From: Fibrobacter sp. UWT2
Lineage (GTDB): Bacteria; Fibrobacterota; Fibrobacteria; Fibrobacterales; Fibrobacteraceae
Assembly (NCBI RefSeq): GCF_900142545.1
Contig: NZ_FRBF01000008.1
Coordinates: 62,001 to 126,000 of the forward strand
DNA: 64,000 nt
Reading direction: 5' to 3'
Under the pieces are notes generated by a model. It made no database searches. It worked only from the letters and a program-made list of their open reading frames with translations, and was not told the DNA's origin. Positions 12,287 to 40,804 of the stretch are shown here, piece by piece (the first letter of the stretch is position 1; each line of letters begins with the position of its first letter). Both the position numbers and the translations under genes were made by a program.

Positions 12287-13183
12287 TTAATTTGCTGAAC
12301 TATCTGCCGGAGTGTTGACTGCGGCGGTTGTGTCGATGACTGCTGTCGAGTCCGTTGCTGCTGTAGAATCTGCTGCGGCTTCTTTCGCCTTGGCTTCTGC
12401 TGCGAGTTCATCGTCACGAATCTTCTTCATGGCGAGCAGTTCGCGATAAACGACTGCCGGGTGAATCTTGCCGTCAGCCATGCCGTCGACGAGCGTTTTG
12501 ATTTTTAGGAAGGTTTCGTTCTTCTCTAAATCTTCGCCGAAGAAATTGTAACCGAGCAACTTGGTGATCTTTGTGTAGAAGCTCCTGCGGAACTTCTTGA
12601 AGCGCGGCTGCATCACGTCGTTCAAGATCGTTTCAAGCGCCATTTCGGTCTGCATCGAGTCAAGTTCAAAGCTACGGTAAATGGTGCGGATGTGATCAGG
12701 AATCGTCGTGTCCGGGCTATCGAAATACTTGCGCATTACGTTAGCGGCTTCAGTCCTGTTCGGGTAAGGCCCGCGAGCAAGGCGAAGTGCATAGTAAAGT
12801 GACAGACGCCAGTTCTCGGGATACACGCGGCTTGCACGGCGCAATACCGAGAAGTCAGACGTGTCAGGAGCATCGACCGGAGTAACACCGCCTACAAAGT
12901 AATACGGCGTGTAGAACAAGGAGTCAAGACTGGTTGAAAGCTCAGCTACGTGACCGAGGTAAGCATATTCCTTACCCGTCAAGTAGCTTTCGCCGAGTTC
13001 CGTCAGACCCTTGATCCAGAAGAGCCCTGCGACTGAAGCGTCATGACCTGCAGCCACATAATGTACTGTCGAAGCCTTCGGCAAGAAAGACTCGTCGAAG
13101 TTCGTACCGGGAAGCGGCTTCGCGAAATGGAAAGCCGCCGCGATAACTGCGATAGCAACGATGATGGCAGCAAGGAAACGCAT
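12287..13183 (-). CDS. Membrane-anchored TPR-like protein, unknown function
   Basis: About 298 residues from ATG 13183. It has one N-terminal hydrophobic helix (FLAAIIVAIAVIAAAF), then a helical domain with GHDASVAGLFWIKGLTELGE and YPENWRLSLYYALRLARG. This resembles uncharacterised TPR-like proteins of several phyla that carry a 'LLADLLWLRAIQYFG' style segment. The tail is rich in Ala/Asp/Thr/Ser (TAATDSTAVIDTTAAV), probably disordered. It begins 2 nt after the pyrF stop and is the last gene of the ispA-dxs operon. A longer start at 13231 inside pyrF is possible but would add an Arg-rich extension before the anchor. Confidence 0.55.
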   Translation of the reverse strand: MRFLAAIIVAIAVIAAAFHFAKPLPGTNFDESFLPKASTVHYVAAGHDASVAGLFWIKGLTELGESYLTGKEYAYLGHVAELSTSLDSLFYTPYYFVGGVTPVDAPDTSDFSVLRRASRVYPENWRLSLYYALRLARGPYPNRTEAANVMRKYFDSPDTTIPDHIRTIYRSFELDSMQTEMALETILNDVMQPRFKKFRRSFYTKITKLLGYNFFGEDLEKNETFLKIKTLVDGMADGKIHPAVVYRELLAMKKIRDDELAAEAKAKEAAADSTAATDSTAVIDTTAAVNTPADSSAN

Positions 13184-13185
13184 AC

Positions 13186-14079
13186 TTAAATCTGGCAGGC
13201 CTCTGCGAGTTTTTCGAGAGCGTCTACGCAATCGCTTGCGAAGTTTTCAGGATGACCGCTGCGCTGGTAGGCAAAGTTCAAACCACTGGAGCTGTTGAGC
13301 ACGTGGAACTTGCGCTTGCCACCGCCATTGGCGATAGCCGTAAGCACGGTCTTTGCGTCACCGCCCTGACCGCCCGGAACACCAGGAATAGACACGCCCG
13401 GAATCAGGAACGGAATTTCGTGCTTGTGAGCAACCGTGTAGGCGGTAATCTTTTCGAGTTCTTCAGGATGCGTTGCACCGACCACGGCGCCGAGGTAACC
13501 GAGGTTGGCGTCCCATTCCATAATCTTGTCGGCTACGGAATAGAAGGCTTCGGCAACATCGCGCGGGTCGTCGCCACGGACCACCGGCAAATCCTGGAAG
13601 TCGTGGGCGCCCTTATTGCTCGTGCGGAGCAAAACGTATGCACCGTTTTCAGAATTTTCGCGAATGAACGGACCCACGGAATCGGCGCCCATCCAAGGAG
13701 ACACCGTCACGGCATCAGCCTTGTACACATCGTAAGCGGCGGTTGCATAAGCTGCGCTCGACTTACCGATGTCACCGCGCTTGGCATCCAGAATCACGGG
13801 AATACCAGCACTGCGGTAGTCAGCAATCAGCTGCTGCAGCACGAGCATGGCCTGCACGCTCACGCATTCGTAGTAAGCGCTATTCGGCTTCACCACGGCG
13901 GGTGTCACGTTGCGCTTGAGGCAGCATTCCAAAATTTCAGAATAGAAACGCTTGATCTTGTCTTCGACGCTACCTTCGGGGCAGCACGGGTCAATCAACT
14001 TCATGACCGGATCCATGCCGAGGCAAATCGGGTTACCGCACTTGGCGATACGTTCTTCTAAACGGGCCTGAAAGTTCAT
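13186..14079 (-). CDS. pyrF: Orotidine 5'-phosphate decarboxylase, type 2
   Basis: A 297-residue enzyme that converts OMP to UMP in the last step of pyrimidine synthesis. Diagnostic motifs are LGMDPVM near residue 20, KPNSAYYE, and the catalytic VILDAKRGDIGKSS (Lys-Asp-Lys-Asp type array, about 95-108), followed by VSPWMGADSVGPF. The length and motifs fit the longer type 2 (mycobacterial-style) subfamily. The ATG overlaps the stop of the upstream SPOUT methyltransferase gene (TAATG), so translation is coupled. There is no obvious pathway link to the isoprenoid genes upstream. Confidence 0.93.
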   Translation of the reverse strand: MNFQARLEERIAKCGNPICLGMDPVMKLIDPCCPEGSVEDKIKRFYSEILECCLKRNVTPAVVKPNSAYYECVSVQAMLVLQQLIADYRSAGIPVILDAKRGDIGKSSAAYATAAYDVYKADAVTVSPWMGADSVGPFIRENSENGAYVLLRTSNKGAHDFQDLPVVRGDDPRDVAEAFYSVADKIMEWDANLGYLGAVVGATHPEELEKITAYTVAHKHEIPFLIPGVSIPGVPGGQGGDAKTVLTAIANGGGKRKFHVLNSSSGLNFAYQRSGHPENFASDCVDALEKLAEACQI

Positions 14080-23247: not shown

Positions 23248-23634
23248 TTAATCTCCGTTGTGGAAGTTTACAACGATTTTACAATCCGCATCGCAGGTCG
23301 CTTCCCACCGACATTCTGGCTTATCCATTATGGATAAATCCCTGCAAATTCCGTCAAATTTGAGGATTTCCGGGTTTTCTGCACTTCGGCTATAGGTGAC
23401 CTCGTAGCTCAGTTCGCCCGCAGAAGAGGCCTGCACCGGTGGTTCGGCCATCAGGCGAGCTGTGAGCAAAATCACACAGTTGTCTTTGCGGGGCATCTTC
23501 GATTCGTCTTCGCCCTGCGCCAGGTTCCAACGGATCTGAATAGGCTTGAAATCGACCTCAGGTTCTTTCTTGGCACAAGATGCAAAGAGAAAGAAGATAG
23601 CGAAGAGGACGAGTAAAAAATCACTGCGAGACAT
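23248..23634 (-). CDS. Small lipoprotein, unknown function
   Basis: A 128-residue protein with a lipoprotein signal (FAIFFLFASCAKK). The mature part is beta-rich with six Cys (NCVILL, GICRDL, CRWEATCDADCK). No family was recognised. Its upstream region and AGGA ribosome-binding site come from the dispersed repeat B at 23638-23675. A perfect palindrome GGAGATTAATCTCC (23237-23250) overlaps its stop codon and could be a weak terminator. Confidence 0.55.
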   Translation of the reverse strand: MSRSDFLLVLFAIFFLFASCAKKEPEVDFKPIQIRWNLAQGEDESKMPRKDNCVILLTARLMAEPPVQASSAGELSYEVTYSRSAENPEILKFDGICRDLSIMDKPECRWEATCDADCKIVVNFHNGD

Positions 23635-23637
23635 ACG

Positions 23638-23675
23638 TCCTGTCTACTGCCTACTTCCTACTGTCTACTACCTAG
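23638..23675 (-). repeat. Dispersed repeat B, locus 1
   Basis: On the minus strand about two units of the CAGTAGGAAGTAG type repeat (GACAGTAGGAAGTA, GGCAGTAGACAGG). Related DNA occurs at 26245-26314 and 38998-39080. It provides the TAG stop of the diguanylate cyclase gene and the leader of the small lipoprotein gene. Confidence 0.7.
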
Positions 23676-24996
23676 TATGGCGGAAGGTGGCGCTGGTGAC
23701 GCGGTTACGGCCATTTTCCTTGGAGGCGTAAAGGGCCTTGTCGGCGCGTTCGAACAAGCGCTTCGGGTCTTCGCCGGCGATCATTTCGGCAATACCGAAG
23801 GAGCAGGTGATCTTCTGTTGCTTGATCAGCTGCGTGTTTTCGATAGCCATGCGGAGCTTTTCAGCAAGGAACTGAGCGTTCTGGATCGGCGTGTCGCCGC
23901 AGAGAATCACGAATTCTTCGCCGCCCCAACGCACCAGGGCGTCGGTGTTGCGGATCTTACTCTGGATAAGCTTTGCGAGGTTCACCAGGACTTCGTCGCC
24001 TACCATGTGGCCGTAGGTGTCGTTCACGTGCTTGAAGTGGTCGATATCCAAGATCACGAAGGACACGGGGCTGTCGTTCTTGCTCAAGTTCTCTTGTTCG
24101 CGCATGAGCACGCTGCTGAAGCCGGCACGGTTCAGGCAGCCTGTAAGCGGGTCTTCCTTGCTGGACTTCTCGTATTCGGTCTTCTCGATTTCCAGGGCGC
24201 GCAGGTTCTTTTCCAGTTCTTCGCGCTTCTTCTTGCTGGCCGTACGTTCGCGGCTGTAGTCAAAGAAGCGGATCATGAGAATCACGAAGAAGGTGATGAA
24301 CCAGAGGGCCACGAGTGCCGTCGAGAGTTCTGCCTTCGAAATTTTCTTGCCCTTGAAGCAAAGTCCCTTGATTTCAAGAGTTCCGTAACCGAGCGGAGCG
24401 TTGGTGCCCGTCTGGATTTCGATGAGCGGAATGTTTGAGAGGTCGACTCTTGCGTTGTGGACGTTGATTTCGTTCTGGGCCACCCACCAGCTAGCTACGC
24501 GGAATTCCTGCGGAACGAAGACGGCGGGATAGGTTTCTTCGAGAGGGAAAAATTCAATTTCGTTGAACTTGAGCGAAAGTTCGTCGTCGGGGCGGGAGAA
24601 GGCGCTGTCGTAGCCGCGCATATAAAGACGCACGGTTCCTTCGCCACGGGGCTTTACCCACACGAAAATGCTGTCGAACTTGGAAAGGTCCTTGCCGCGG
24701 GTTTTGCCGTCACCCAAGAAGATCTTGACGCCCACATACGGGTAGGCGTAGCCTTCCTTCAGTTCGTAGTCCACGATGATGGAAGAGTCGGTACGGGAAA
24801 GCTTCACCGCCGAAGCGCCGCCATCGGCCGAGTCCGTCTCGGCAATGAGATACGGGTAATCGTGGAGGTACAGAGGCTCAATAACGTCTAGACCGTTCTG
24901 ATGGGCAAAAAGTGCTATGACCGTGATTGCCAAAAGCACGAAAATCAGAATGTTCATCCTGAACAGAACGTATATCTTCTCAAGTATCCTAGACAT
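23668..24996 (-). CDS. Membrane diguanylate cyclase with periplasmic sensor domain
   Basis: A 442-residue protein. A first membrane helix (NILIFVLLAITVIALFA) is followed by a periplasmic beta-rich region of about 190 residues that looks like a carbohydrate-binding jelly roll (LKEGYAYPYVGVKIFLGDG, VWVKPRGEGTVRLYMRG). A second helix (ALVALWFITFFVILMI), a coiled linker (EELEKNLRALEIEKTEYEKSS) and a GGDEF domain (about 285-435) come next. The active site is RWGGEEFVIL, intact. It should make cyclic di-GMP in response to an outside cue, possibly a glycan (inference). Its C-terminal codon and stop lie in repeat B. Confidence 0.85.
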   Translation of the reverse strand: MSRILEKIYVLFRMNILIFVLLAITVIALFAHQNGLDVIEPLYLHDYPYLIAETDSADGGASAVKLSRTDSSIIVDYELKEGYAYPYVGVKIFLGDGKTRGKDLSKFDSIFVWVKPRGEGTVRLYMRGYDSAFSRPDDELSLKFNEIEFFPLEETYPAVFVPQEFRVASWWVAQNEINVHNARVDLSNIPLIEIQTGTNAPLGYGTLEIKGLCFKGKKISKAELSTALVALWFITFFVILMIRFFDYSRERTASKKKREELEKNLRALEIEKTEYEKSSKEDPLTGCLNRAGFSSVLMREQENLSKNDSPVSFVILDIDHFKHVNDTYGHMVGDEVLVNLAKLIQSKIRNTDALVRWGGEEFVILCGDTPIQNAQFLAEKLRMAIENTQLIKQQKITCSFGIAEMIAGEDPKRLFERADKALYASKENGRNRVTSATFRHTR

Positions 24997-26220: not shown

Positions 26221-26244
26221 GGGGAAAATAGTAGTAAAATAGAA

Positions 26245-26314
26245 GGCAGTAGGAAGTAGGCAGTAGGAAGTAGACAGTAGGAAGTAGACAGTAGGAAGTA
26301 TACGGTAGGAAGTG
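26245..26314. repeat. Dispersed repeat B, locus 2: five tandem 14-bp units
   Basis: Five consecutive units of GGCAGTAGGAAGTA / GACAGTAGGAAGTA / TACGGTAGGAAGTG with few changes, in the gap between two divergent genes. There is no unique spacer sequence, so it is not a CRISPR array. Confidence 0.85.
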
Positions 26315-26383
26315 GTTAGTGGTTAGGGATGTGAGATGTGGAATGTGTAATCGCGCGTTTCACATTTTGTTACATTGATTTGC

Positions 26384-32066: not shown

Positions 32067-32098
32067 GTCTGCCTAATGGTCTTATGTGAGCAACAAAA

Positions 32099-32120
32099 GC
32101 CCCTAGTATTAACTAGGGGC
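32099..32120 (+). terminator. Hairpin after the AAE transporter gene
   Basis: GCCCCTAG and CTAGGGGC form an 8-bp stem around TATTAA, 33 nt past the stop at 32066. It lacks a T-run, so it may be an RNA-stabilising hairpin rather than the terminator itself. Confidence 0.4.
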
Positions 32121-32198
32121 GGTTGCGAGAGTGAGGCGATATCATATTTCCATGGTGCGATAGAGCCGAACGGTCTTTTTAGTACTCCCTCGAACACT

Positions 32199-32257: not shown

Positions 32258-33049
32258 TTATTCAGCGGGGCAGGCGTCGACGAGTTGACCTTCGAGCGTC
32301 GTTTCGCACATATCCTTCATTGCTGCAGGGAGCTCTTCGCAGCCTCCCATGACACCTGGAACAATGCAGTAAATCACATCGCCGCCAGCAGCAGGCTGTT
32401 CGCCGGCACCCGGACCAGCAGGTTCTTCACCGGCACCCGGCCCGGCAGGTTCTTCACCAGCGCCCGGCCCAGCGGGTTCTTCGCCTGCACCCGGCCCGGC
32501 GGGTTCTTCGCCAGCGCCCGGACCGGCAGGTTCTTCACCGGCACCCGGACCGGCAGGTTCTTCACCGGCACCCGGACCGGCAGGTTCTTCACCAGCACCC
32601 GGACCGGCAGGTTCTTCGCCAGCGCCCGGCCCGGCAGGTTCTTCGCCAGCGCCCGGATCAGCGGGATCTTCACCGGCACCCGGACCAGCGGGTTCTTCGC
32701 CAGCGCCCGGATTTTCAGTGGCAGGTTCGTCTGTAGCCGGAGTACTTGTGGCGCCTTTTTCGCAACCTTCAACCGGTTTGCCGAACGTCATCGGAGTAAA
32801 GAGTGTTCCGTTGCATTGTACGGTATCTTTATCTTCTTCAACATAAACCTTGACGCACATATTAACGGTCTGTGAGCAAGTAAGATTGATCGCATCTTCA
32901 AGCGTTTGAACACTTGCCGGCAGGTCGGTCGTCGATGGGGTGGTGGACGGAGTGCCGTTAGACGGACTAGAGGAACTGTCGTCACCGCACGCAACGAAAG
33001 AAGCCATTGCAAGGGCGGCGAAAGGAAGGATGATTTTTTTGTTAAGCAT
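32258..33049 (-). CDS. Lipoprotein with tandem GAGEEPAGP repeats
   Basis: A 263-residue lipoprotein (lipobox MASFVACGDD, then SSSS). A folded N-terminal region (about 40-105) holds three Cys. About a dozen tandem copies of GAGEEPAGP follow (about 115-225), and a C-terminal region has four Cys (YCIVPGVMGGCEELP, MCETTLEGQLVDACPAE). The repeat would form an extended acidic, Pro-rich stalk, holding the C-terminal domain away from the outer membrane. Function is unknown. TAGGAGTC precedes the ATG as a Shine-Dalgarno. Confidence 0.75.
   Translation of the reverse strand: MLNKKIILPFAALAMASFVACGDDSSSSPSNGTPSTTPSTTDLPASVQTLEDAINLTCSQTVNMCVKVYVEEDKDTVQCNGTLFTPMTFGKPVEGCEKGATSTPATDEPATENPGAGEEPAGPGAGEDPADPGAGEEPAGPGAGEEPAGPGAGEEPAGPGAGEEPAGPGAGEEPAGPGAGEEPAGPGAGEEPAGPGAGEEPAGPGAGEEPAGPGAGEQPAAGGDVIYCIVPGVMGGCEELPAAMKDMCETTLEGQLVDACPAE
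32394..32712 (-). repeat. 27-bp in-frame tandem repeat (about 12 units)
   Basis: Nearly identical 27-bp units encoding GAGEEPAGP, with one variant EDPADP unit near the coding 5' side. Neighbouring units differ only at third positions (CCGGCACCCGG versus CCAGCGCCCGG), so copy number is likely to change by slippage. Confidence 0.85.
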
Positions 33050-35842: not shown

Positions 35843-35968
35843 ACGGGGGTAAAATTTAGAAAATGAGTATGAGGTATGAGGTCGCACTGACGTGCTTTGA
35901 GGTCGCTTCGCTTTGAGCAAGCGGAATGAGGAATGTGGAATTTGCGATGGGTTTACACAAAATGAAAA

Positions 35969-38938: not shown

Positions 38939-38959
38939 AAACTCCCCCAATAAAAAAAA

Positions 38960-38982
38960 GGATATAACCTCTAGTTATATCC
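38960..38982 (-). terminator. Terminator after the GH9 gene
   Basis: GGATATAA and TTATATCC form the stem; on the minus strand T8 follows. It lies just before the Shine-Dalgarno of the next gene. Confidence 0.65.
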
Positions 38983-38997
38983 GTAATATATATTTTA

Positions 38998-39080
38998 GTA
39001 GGAAGTTTGAAGCCGGAAGTTAGAAGTAGAATGCTGTTTTTACAATAAATCCTTCCTACTTCTTACCGTCTACTGCCTAC
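38998..39080. repeat. Dispersed repeat B, locus 3 (degenerate)
   Basis: AGTAGGAAGTTTGAAGCCGG at the left and, on the minus strand, AAGTAGGCAGTAGACGG with AGAAGTAGGAAGG at the right, around an AT-rich centre. The right part supplies the TAG stop of GH9. Confidence 0.6.
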
Positions 39081-40804
39081 TTGTTATAAATCGCTTCGAG
39101 GGCGGCAGCAAGGTAGGCGAGCGGAGCGTTCCAGTTGATGGCCACTTCGTTGGTCGCGTAGCTGCAGCGGTTATCGATATAGGCGAGTGCCGGCTTATCG
39201 GCAGCGGCATAGTTCGGGCACTTCCAATTTTCCTTGCCGTCCAGGTTAATGTCCTGCTTGCCGAGGTGCGGGCCACCTACAAGCATTCCCGGCACCGGAT
39301 CGTCGACCATGTCGGATTCACTCGGACGGTGGTGCGGGTTGCGTGGGCTCCTGTAACCGAAGCCGGTCACATAAGTCATGTCCTGCGGGTTCTTGCCGAG
39401 TAAGTAATCAAGGCACTGCTGCGCACCATCCAAGTAGCTCTTGTCTTTGGTTAGCAGGTAAGCGTGCACCAACACCATGCCGTTGTTTGCCATGGCGCTA
39501 TTGGAACCCCAGTTCCAGCTCCACGGGAATGCGGGCAGGCGGTAGGCGCTCGTGTCACCTACAGTGCGAAGGTTGTTGGCTTCGGTGAGCACAGTCTTCT
39601 TGGCGGCAGCAACAATTTCCTTGTCGAAGTCAGCAGAATCCAGTGCCACGCGGAAAGCGGCGAGCATGTTCACGTTTCCCCACCAGGCGCCATCGGGCGT
39701 GAAGAGATTATTCTTCAAGTCATCCTGATAATACTGCTTCTTGGTGGCGCGGAAAAGTTCTGCAGCGGCCCAGCGGAATTCATCCTTGCCATCTTCGCCG
39801 TCGTGCATGTAGTTGCCCGTCTGCACATCGGCAGGCTGCTTGTAGAACTGCTGCGGGTGCATCTTGGCCCAAGCGTAAGCTTCTTCGGCGGCCTTGAGCA
39901 TCTTGTCGGAATAAGCCTTGTCCACGTTCTTGTAGACGACACTTGCCTGAGCCATCACAGCAGCAAAGTCAAGCGTTGCCGTTACGTTCTTGATAATTGC
40001 ATAGCGGGCGTCCCTGTCGTTTTCAGGGAGAACGCTGCCACCGAACTTAAGCGTTGTCACCTTGTGGTAAACGCCGCCGTCCTTGTCCTGCATGGTGAGC
40101 ATCCAGTCCAAGTTGTAGCGCACTTCTTCTAAAATCTCAGGGTACTTCGCGAATTCGCGCGGAATGTTCCAGGAGAGCGAATCCAGATACTTCGGGAAGT
40201 TTTCGTAAGCTTCGAGCAGCGTAAACACGGTGATGCCGGAATTCACGATGTACTTGCCGTAGTCGCCGGCATCGTACCAGCCACGATCGGACTTGATCAC
40301 CTGACCGTTACCTTTGCCGCCCGTAGCCTTGTCAGAACCATAAACGATTACGCGATTATCTTTATGGCCTGCAGCGCGGGCCCACTTGCCGGCATACTGC
40401 GGTTCCAGCGACATGCTGGCGCGCTGGTAGTAGAACCACTTGAGGCTTGCCTTTACCAAGTCGTTATAGACATTCTTGCCCACGACAATCGGGGTGCCCA
40501 CATATTCCTTGCCGCGGAAGAGGCGGTAGGTGCCAGGTTTCTTGACTGCAGAAATATCGAAAGTCTGTACTTCTTCGCCGCTGTATTCCCAATCATAGAC
40601 CATGGGGGCCTTGAGTTTCAAGACAGTCTTTCCGTTAAGGTCACGGACTTCGAGCCCATTGGCATCGCTACCGGGGTAAACGACAATCTTTTCGGCATCG
40701 GGGGCGAAACCAAGCTGGTTTACGAGGGGGCCTGCAAAAGCAGACGAAAAAGACACGGCTACAGAAACCGCGCTTGCTAAAATCACGTTTTTAGAGAATC
40801 TCAT
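39077..40804 (-). CDS. GH9 endoglucanase (cellulase), secreted
   Basis: A 575-residue cellulase. Signal peptide (AVSVAVSFSSAFAG), then the Ig-like CelD-N domain (about 25-110: NQLGFAPDAEKIVVY, GTYRLFRGKEYVG) and the (alpha/alpha)6 GH9 domain. Catalytic signatures are GWYDAGDYGKY (175-185, catalytic Asp pair), NPHHRPSESD (His/Arg substrate ligands) and YATNEVAINWNAPL with the acid Glu at 553. It cleaves beta-1,4-glucan. No dockerin, CBM or type IX sorting domain is seen at the C-terminus, which ends on AIYNK with a stop from repeat B. TATATTCT ends 4 nt before the ATG. Confidence 0.95.
   Translation of the reverse strand: MRFSKNVILASAVSVAVSFSSAFAGPLVNQLGFAPDAEKIVVYPGSDANGLEVRDLNGKTVLKLKAPMVYDWEYSGEEVQTFDISAVKKPGTYRLFRGKEYVGTPIVVGKNVYNDLVKASLKWFYYQRASMSLEPQYAGKWARAAGHKDNRVIVYGSDKATGGKGNGQVIKSDRGWYDAGDYGKYIVNSGITVFTLLEAYENFPKYLDSLSWNIPREFAKYPEILEEVRYNLDWMLTMQDKDGGVYHKVTTLKFGGSVLPENDRDARYAIIKNVTATLDFAAVMAQASVVYKNVDKAYSDKMLKAAEEAYAWAKMHPQQFYKQPADVQTGNYMHDGEDGKDEFRWAAAELFRATKKQYYQDDLKNNLFTPDGAWWGNVNMLAAFRVALDSADFDKEIVAAAKKTVLTEANNLRTVGDTSAYRLPAFPWSWNWGSNSAMANNGMVLVHAYLLTKDKSYLDGAQQCLDYLLGKNPQDMTYVTGFGYRSPRNPHHRPSESDMVDDPVPGMLVGGPHLGKQDINLDGKENWKCPNYAAADKPALAYIDNRCSYATNEVAINWNAPLAYLAAALEAIYNK

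Follow-up and report, generated by a model that had tools for sequence, protein, structure and literature searches.

The short tandemly repeated repetitive (STRR) heptamers of cyanobacteria are intergenic and dispersed, and by description the arrays of the rumen bacterium Fibrobacter considered here are likewise intergenic, dispersed heptamers. REP elements, which go with RAYT transposases, are short dispersed intergenic elements that form inverted pairs and carry a GTAG head. The Fibrobacter arrays share their shortness, their dispersal between genes and their inverted pairs, yet a REP element is one fixed palindrome with its RAYT, whereas here we find tandem heptads in a genome (G000) where no match to PF01797 was obtained. 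Mrazek and co-workers reportedly noticed in 2007 a heptanucleotide excess among the long simple sequence repeats of many bacteria, and are said to have explained this excess of period 7 by polymerase contact and slippage. The same excess is present in Fibrobacter, but local slippage alone does not fit the insertions described below.

An excess of heptanucleotide repeats in bacteria is already in print, and two papers report the hypothesis that seven nucleotides reflect the stretch contacted by the polymerase (PMC4692102, PMC4679880). Direct repeats of the heptamer TAACTGA were described in Beggiatoaceae, Cyanobacteria and Bacteroidetes (MacGregor, 2015; PMC4679880). They resemble the Fibrobacter arrays in being 7-bp direct repeats, mostly intergenic, some of them overlapping stop codons, with a patchy distribution between species. 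There, one heptamer is favoured and similar ones are rare, whereas Fibrobacter has many heptads (24 clusters for 118 arrays); TAACTGA repeats lie mostly upstream of start codons, whereas Fibrobacter arrays are in excess at the 3′ ends of genes; a single inverted case is reported among 170 sets, whereas inverted pairs are common in Fibrobacter, where, in a further difference, types are swapped at orthologous junctions. The GGGAATC and GGGGA(C/T)T heptamer repeats of Xanthomonas and Nostoc (Rehm, 2015; PMC4692102) are again dispersed intergenic heptamers whose number and sequence vary among close relatives at the same genes, with inverted cases and a preference for the sense strand near stops. 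Their units are of the G-quadruplex kind, under-represented between divergent genes and tied to increased stability; by contrast, the Fibrobacter arrays have mostly no G-runs, comprise many types and are inserted at empty junctions. While a G-quadruplex calls for a run of at least three G per unit, the four largest Fibrobacter clusters have at most GG. A literature search, with subscription journals mostly outside its reach, found no account of heptad or tandem repeats in Fibrobacter, nor did a term search of PMC4060949 find mention of such repeats. Heptanucleotide repeats are known in bacteria; the insertion, swapping and polarity reported here look new.

The AGTAGRM arrays of the window

The window is a stretch of 64,000 nucleotides (G000:C8:62001-126000) from a genome of 3.49 Mb in 49 contigs. 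For its esterase gene, the relatives that bear a name belong to Fibrobacter MAGs; the closest, at 93%, is labelled F. succinogenes in a comparison from which the genome itself was possibly absent. A sequence-only reading of this DNA had proposed five 14-bp tandem units at 26245-26314. The place and the kind of repeat stand, with an array of ten units (AGTAGGA, AGTAGGC and AGTAGAC) at 26241-26310 on the plus strand, flanked by the gene of a GDSL-type esterase on the minus strand and by a cytochrome-c-like ORF on the plus strand. The unit has to be revised: it is the 7-bp heptad AGTAGRM, the 14-mer being two heptads. TRF reports this array both at period 14 (4.8 copies, 94% matches) and at period 7 (8.1 copies, 78% matches). 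A second sequence type, AGTGGTT, is joined to it at 26311-26326 (plus), and GATGTGR heptads with an inverted partner form a hairpin at 26327-26370 (plus), resembling the AATGTG pair found at the same place in the related genome G003.

Exact matches to AGTAGRMAGTAGRM lie at 23642-23669 (minus), 26248-26296 (plus) and 39068-39081 (minus), and weaker units adjoin them, among them 38997-39031 (plus). Related DNA had been announced near 23638-23675 and 38998-39080; it was recovered at 23642-23676 (minus), 38997-39031 (plus) and 39054-39081 (minus), and the two stop codons said to lie inside it do so. An AGTAGRM array at 23638-23677 (minus), whose purine-rich strand runs in the direction of the diguanylate cyclase gene (GGDEF, PF00990), contains the TAG stop of that gene at 23668-23670. 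Behind the GH9 cellulase gene (PF00759) is an inverted AGTAG pair, with a left, purine-rich arm at 38997-39031 (plus) and a right arm at 39054-39081 (minus) that contains the gene's TAG stop at 39077-39079. The ORF starting just past the 23638-23677 array, formerly read as a lipoprotein gene, gave no match in a Pfam search. Other heptads are present at 35863-35951 (plus), upstream of a decarboxylase gene (minus), where ATGAGGT heptads, small hairpins and GGAATGA heptads follow one another; G005 has the same start at this place and G029 carries an AGTAGAC array instead. A stop codon considered at 35866 was dropped, the real gene there being, according to Pfam, the decarboxylase on the other strand, and this place is left out of the gene-end evidence.

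A class of arrays with period seven

Within the window, 44 matches with at most three mismatches compare with 26.95 expected and 40 in the largest shuffle. Over the whole genome there are 242 copies of the exact double heptad against 1 for a reversed control pattern, and 395 against 22 when one mismatch is allowed. Copies are numerous outside the window, so that the lack of further copies which the sequence-only reading had named as its refutation is not observed. The exact double heptad is found in 32 of the 37 genomes of the genus that were searched (0 to 397 copies, with 397 in G006), and in 4 of 23 other genomes of the phylum (1-6 copies). The reversed control yields 0-4 matches per genus genome, except for 46 in G010 and 22 in G009, which perhaps represent another heptad type. 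Besides AGTAGRM there are many other sequence types: one further heptad pattern, TCTCGTCTYTCGTC, is present in 53 of 61 genus genomes, with up to 221 copies and one control match overall, and its counts correlate with those of the double heptad over 37 genomes (Spearman rho 0.67, kinship ignored). A bias for one replication strand, considered when the G004 sites, among those listed, were all on the plus strand over 700 kb, was dropped as a probable artefact, since L139 has a minus-strand array that was not among them.

What the types have in common is their step. The DNA was scanned for stretches that resemble themselves at a lag p, with a minimum of 16 identical positions in 21. In G000, 464 kb gave 35 arrays of period 7, when periods 4, 5, 8, 10, 11 and 13 gave 1, 0, 0, 0, 1 and 0. 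The 1.553 Mb sampled from 18 Fibrobacter genomes (G000 included) contained 118 period-7 arrays, against 2, 2, 0, 0, 1 and 1 at those same periods. Periods divisible by 3 are raised there (21 arrays at 6, 54 at 12), as expected of coding repeats, and so are 14 and 21, as harmonics; of the periods that three does not divide, only 7 stands out. Tandem heptads exceed chance, as in the heptanucleotide tandem repeats of bacterial intergenic regions, and the location is mainly intergenic too: of 139 arrays, 98 sit in an unambiguous intergenic interval, and 36 run into an ORF predicted mechanically, in many cases at a 5′ end drawn too long. The largest clusters among the 118 arrays are AGTAGRM (37), AATGTGG (13), ACGAGAG (10) and AGTGGTT (9). 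Ten genomes from outside the genus but within the phylum, sampled over 307 kb, gave 16 period-7 arrays, one of which is a C-run and ten of which come from G039 alone, with 1, 2, 2, 2 and 4 arrays at periods 5, 8, 10, 11 and 13. Three members of the genus (G025, G035 and G082) had no period-7 arrays in the 60-100 kb sampled. Heptad arrays are spread across Fibrobacter as a genus and also occur in some further families of the phylum. Near-perfect long heptad hairpins were seen at L174 and L175 (G039) and at L181 (G044), some of them beginning 2-9 bp behind stop codons.

Arrays and the ends of genes

The sequence-only reading held that the copies create gene ends. This did not survive comparison: over 30 gene ends abutting an array, the end of the protein was kept in 69 of 84 ortholog comparisons (C-terminal residue the same within one), which are not independent and include a few matches to distant paralogues. 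The end was kept in 39 of 45 comparisons for arrays in purine sense, in 17 of 17 for the intermediate ones and in 13 of 22 for those in pyrimidine sense. As cases in point, the diguanylate cyclase has an identical end point in the seven genomes compared, its stop being TAG, TGA or TAA with AGTAG, ATGAGGT or TTCGGAA arrays downstream of it, and the GH9 enzyme finishes in ...IYNK in four genomes out of four, with TAG in G000, TGA in G029 and TAG in G003 and G005. A few gene ends do shift, by ten residues for example at G000 C2:212000. The array thus takes the place of the letters of the stop, mostly not of its position, and the identity of a stop codon can follow from the neighbouring repeat DNA.

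When 98 arrays were compared with random placement in the same interval, 3′ ends of genes were abutted at 56 of 108 edges (40.1 expected), an excess, and 5′ ends at 22 of 88 (21.6 expected), without excess. The sense of the array matters: purine-sense edges abut stops in 36 of 46 cases (18.2 expected) and mixed ones in 9 of 16 (4.3 expected), while pyrimidine-sense edges show a deficit (11 of 46, 17.6 expected). Part of the purine-sense excess is built in, because such an array ends any frame entering it. The rest could reflect a take-over of the stop, with deletions reaching as far as the last codon if the array offers a new stop. Purine-sense arrays, which carry stops in most types, would then come to abut the gene and provide its stop while the protein end is unmoved, and their positions suggest that pyrimidine-sense arrays could rarely do so. 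This idea is weakened by purine-sense arrays with stops in fewer than three frames, as 9 of 11 abut gene ends as well. The orientation of 32 AGTAGRM arrays relative to the flanking genes shows no bias (7 with both genes on the plus strand, 8 with both on the minus strand, 9 convergent, 8 divergent). An early count of sense and antisense arrays at stops (12 versus 4 of 32) was set aside as partly trivial, since the arrays hold stops, and is superseded by random placement and the ortholog test.

The same junction in relatives

The junction of the main array (26221-26375) has edges, AATAGTAGTA and TTCTACAT, that are common to most relatives. Between them, G000 has AGTAGRM, AGTGGTT and GATGTGR heptads, G029 a shorter AGTAGRM array plus other DNA, G003 an AATGTG inverted pair, G005 NTCTAAN heptads with an inverted partner, G079 ATTCGGA/ATTCAGA arrays (with a more distant right flank), and G036 no array, with 25 bp in all. 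Inspected by eye, the named MAG RUG14497 has the AATGTG type there, RUG13981 and RUG10152 the CTTAGA type, RGIG6529 is empty, and no heptad array was seen in Fibrobacter MAGs from horse faeces (L165-L169). Elsewhere, on contig C2, a 44-bp AGTAG array of G000 and G029 corresponds to 7 bp in G005 and to a GATGTG array in G003, and an AGTAG inverted pair of the same two genomes corresponds to 9 bp in G005 and G003. Over 16 junctions compared by eye between G000 and G029, leaving out three further C2 arrays without an orthologous stretch, 7 had the same type, 3 another type and 6 no array. The junction following the diguanylate cyclase contains, in G029 (L033/L062) and G036 (L036/L074), about 110 bp of ATGAGG and hairpin DNA that is nearly identical while the flanking coding DNA has clearly diverged, a pattern as in recent transfer or copying of one element.

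Some junctions were empty to begin with. At 13181-13188 (minus), the window has a stop, 2 bp and an ATG, and six genomes have a spacer of 2-3 bp (TAAGTATG, TAAGTTATG or TAATTATG); in G079 the place is filled by about 93 bp of heptad arrays, with a CTTAGA pair (purine, then pyrimidine) and a stretch of TTCAGA type. At another junction, G029 and G003 have a TAATG overlap, and G005 has TAG, 28 bp of CTTAGAG-type heptads, then ATG. Spacers so short leave no seed, so that arrays can arrive ready-made. Other junctions resemble replacement, not clean insertion. The target-site duplication and fixed ends of a MITE or insertion-sequence derivative were not evident by eye at the two cleanest junctions, and no clear ones were found at arrays. 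Arrays also share blocks: one of 28 bp, AGTAGACAGTAGGAAGTAGACGGTAGAC, is found at 4 places in G000, at 4 in G029 (one orthologous to a G000 place) and at 9 more in 6 other genomes, against 0 for the control, and 10 of the 35 arrays of the G000 sample have 28-mers in common with another array, two of these ten being identical copies 1.4 kb apart with identical flanks. Such sharing indicates that arrays are copied as blocks. The two identical copies, TTCCATA-type arrays at about 158718-158750 and 160103-160135 of G000:C2, look like a tandem duplication. With copies far beyond the window, swaps between relatives and a shared 28-bp block, the earlier view of a family spreading near gene borders, where it also changes, is borne out.

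Inverted pairs have a polarity. Where two arms of the same type lie within 120 bp, the purine-richer arm comes first in 17 rows out of 17, two of which are one place, one an orthologous copy and three only slightly asymmetric (0.50-0.54 versus 0.44-0.45). This polarity is common to several types, those of other families included, and is therefore not explained by descent of one element.

How the arrays may arise and persist

In our preferred reading, to which we give a probability of about 0.6, AGTAGRM is one type in a class of dispersed intergenic heptad arrays that arrive ready-made, are copied as blocks and are mostly neutral or selfish. Arrays of a few to about twenty units, sometimes inverted pairs with the purine-rich arm first, can appear ready-made in gene junctions, as the comparison of relatives shows. 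They can change in length by a multiple of 7 bp, presumably by slippage, and are lost or replaced by arrays of other sequence, as seen at orthologous junctions. The shared blocks show that multi-unit pieces of one type are copied from locus to locus, perhaps by template switching, end-joining capture or some enzyme. Arrays would survive wherever they leave the proteins intact, and most of them are most likely neutral or selfish. One may go further and imagine, as a speculation that we hold unlikely, that Fibrobacterota have an unrecognised process writing or inserting DNA in 7-base steps whatever the sequence, with a polymerase, a nucleotidyltransferase or an end-joining machine adding or copying seven nucleotides at a time. 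On this view, a fixed step combined with a free sequence points to the geometry of an enzyme, not to one conserved element. If true, heptad arrays would be a new class of mobile DNA.

That arrays are functional RNA or DNA elements, whether as terminators, as hairpins of 3′ UTRs or as protein-binding arrays controlling adjacent genes, is unlikely. To be sure, inverted pairs form hairpins (the region 38945-39085, which includes a separate terminator-like hairpin, folds with z of -3.5 and -3.0), minimum free energy alone predicts strong ones in G039 and G044, and arrays are in excess beside 3′ ends. Taken together, however, the 118 arrays fold slightly less well than 110 control intergenic stretches (median z -1.53 versus -1.81), and their type and presence differ between close relatives. 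Single cases are uneven: 26226-26370 gives z of -2.4 and -1.9, and 23630-23690 no hairpin. A scan for intrinsic terminators, which consist of a stable hairpin followed by a T-run, listed none inside the arrays at 26241-26310, 23638-23677 and 38997-39081, and an Rfam search of the window at gathering score returned no family match.

Purely local slippage, in which chance heptads expand in place because seven nucleotides suit the polymerase, is improbable. It would account for the single period common to unrelated sequences, and one orthologous array does differ by 21 bp between G000 and G029, the single clear case of a length change. As sole process it is already contradicted by arrays where relatives have no room for a seed and by the recurrence, at unrelated loci, of identical heptads and of one 28-bp block, although slippage may shape the length of arrays. 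Fibrobacter offers natural experiments in this respect: among close relatives a given junction may be empty or may contain one heptad type or another, arrays occupy junctions that had no prior seed, and a single genus has rich and poor species. This makes the choice between local slippage and mobile DNA directly testable.

It is very improbable that the arrays are cassettes selected behind genes for stops in all frames, which period 7 supplies in three frames within 21 nt. Purine-sense arrays do abut gene ends, and the purine strand contains a stop in 88 of the 118 consensus heptads, but permuted letters do nearly as well (88 versus 77.2; 38 versus 35.3 for the 51 distinct heptads), arrays of stop-free types number in the tens to hundreds, and any period not divisible by 3 would do, yet only 7 occurs. 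Finally, we hold it very improbable that the arrays are REP-like or retroelement repeats whose mobility came from a Y1 (RAYT/IS200) transposase or from a reverse transcriptase. Despite the inverted pairs and the likeness of GTAG in the AGTAGRM unit to the head of REPs, many heptad types have no GTAG, neither PF01797 nor PF00078 has a match in G000 or in the array-rich G029, G006 with its wealth of exact copies lacks PF01797, G004 and G030 lack PF00078, and the 20 and 16 of 61 genomes that possess such genes do not track array number, so that the evidence from G000 speaks against this route, barring an enzyme that has diverged beyond the reach of the models or that acted in the past.

Besides the heptads, the window contains a 27-bp coding repeat (32391-32711, 11.9 copies, within a minus-strand ORF) and, at about 32085-32135, a partial copy of a dispersed element of some 90 bp that is not heptad-based; the latter is also seen at L097:16060-16175, with 21 matches across G000 and numerous ones in G029, G003 and G005.
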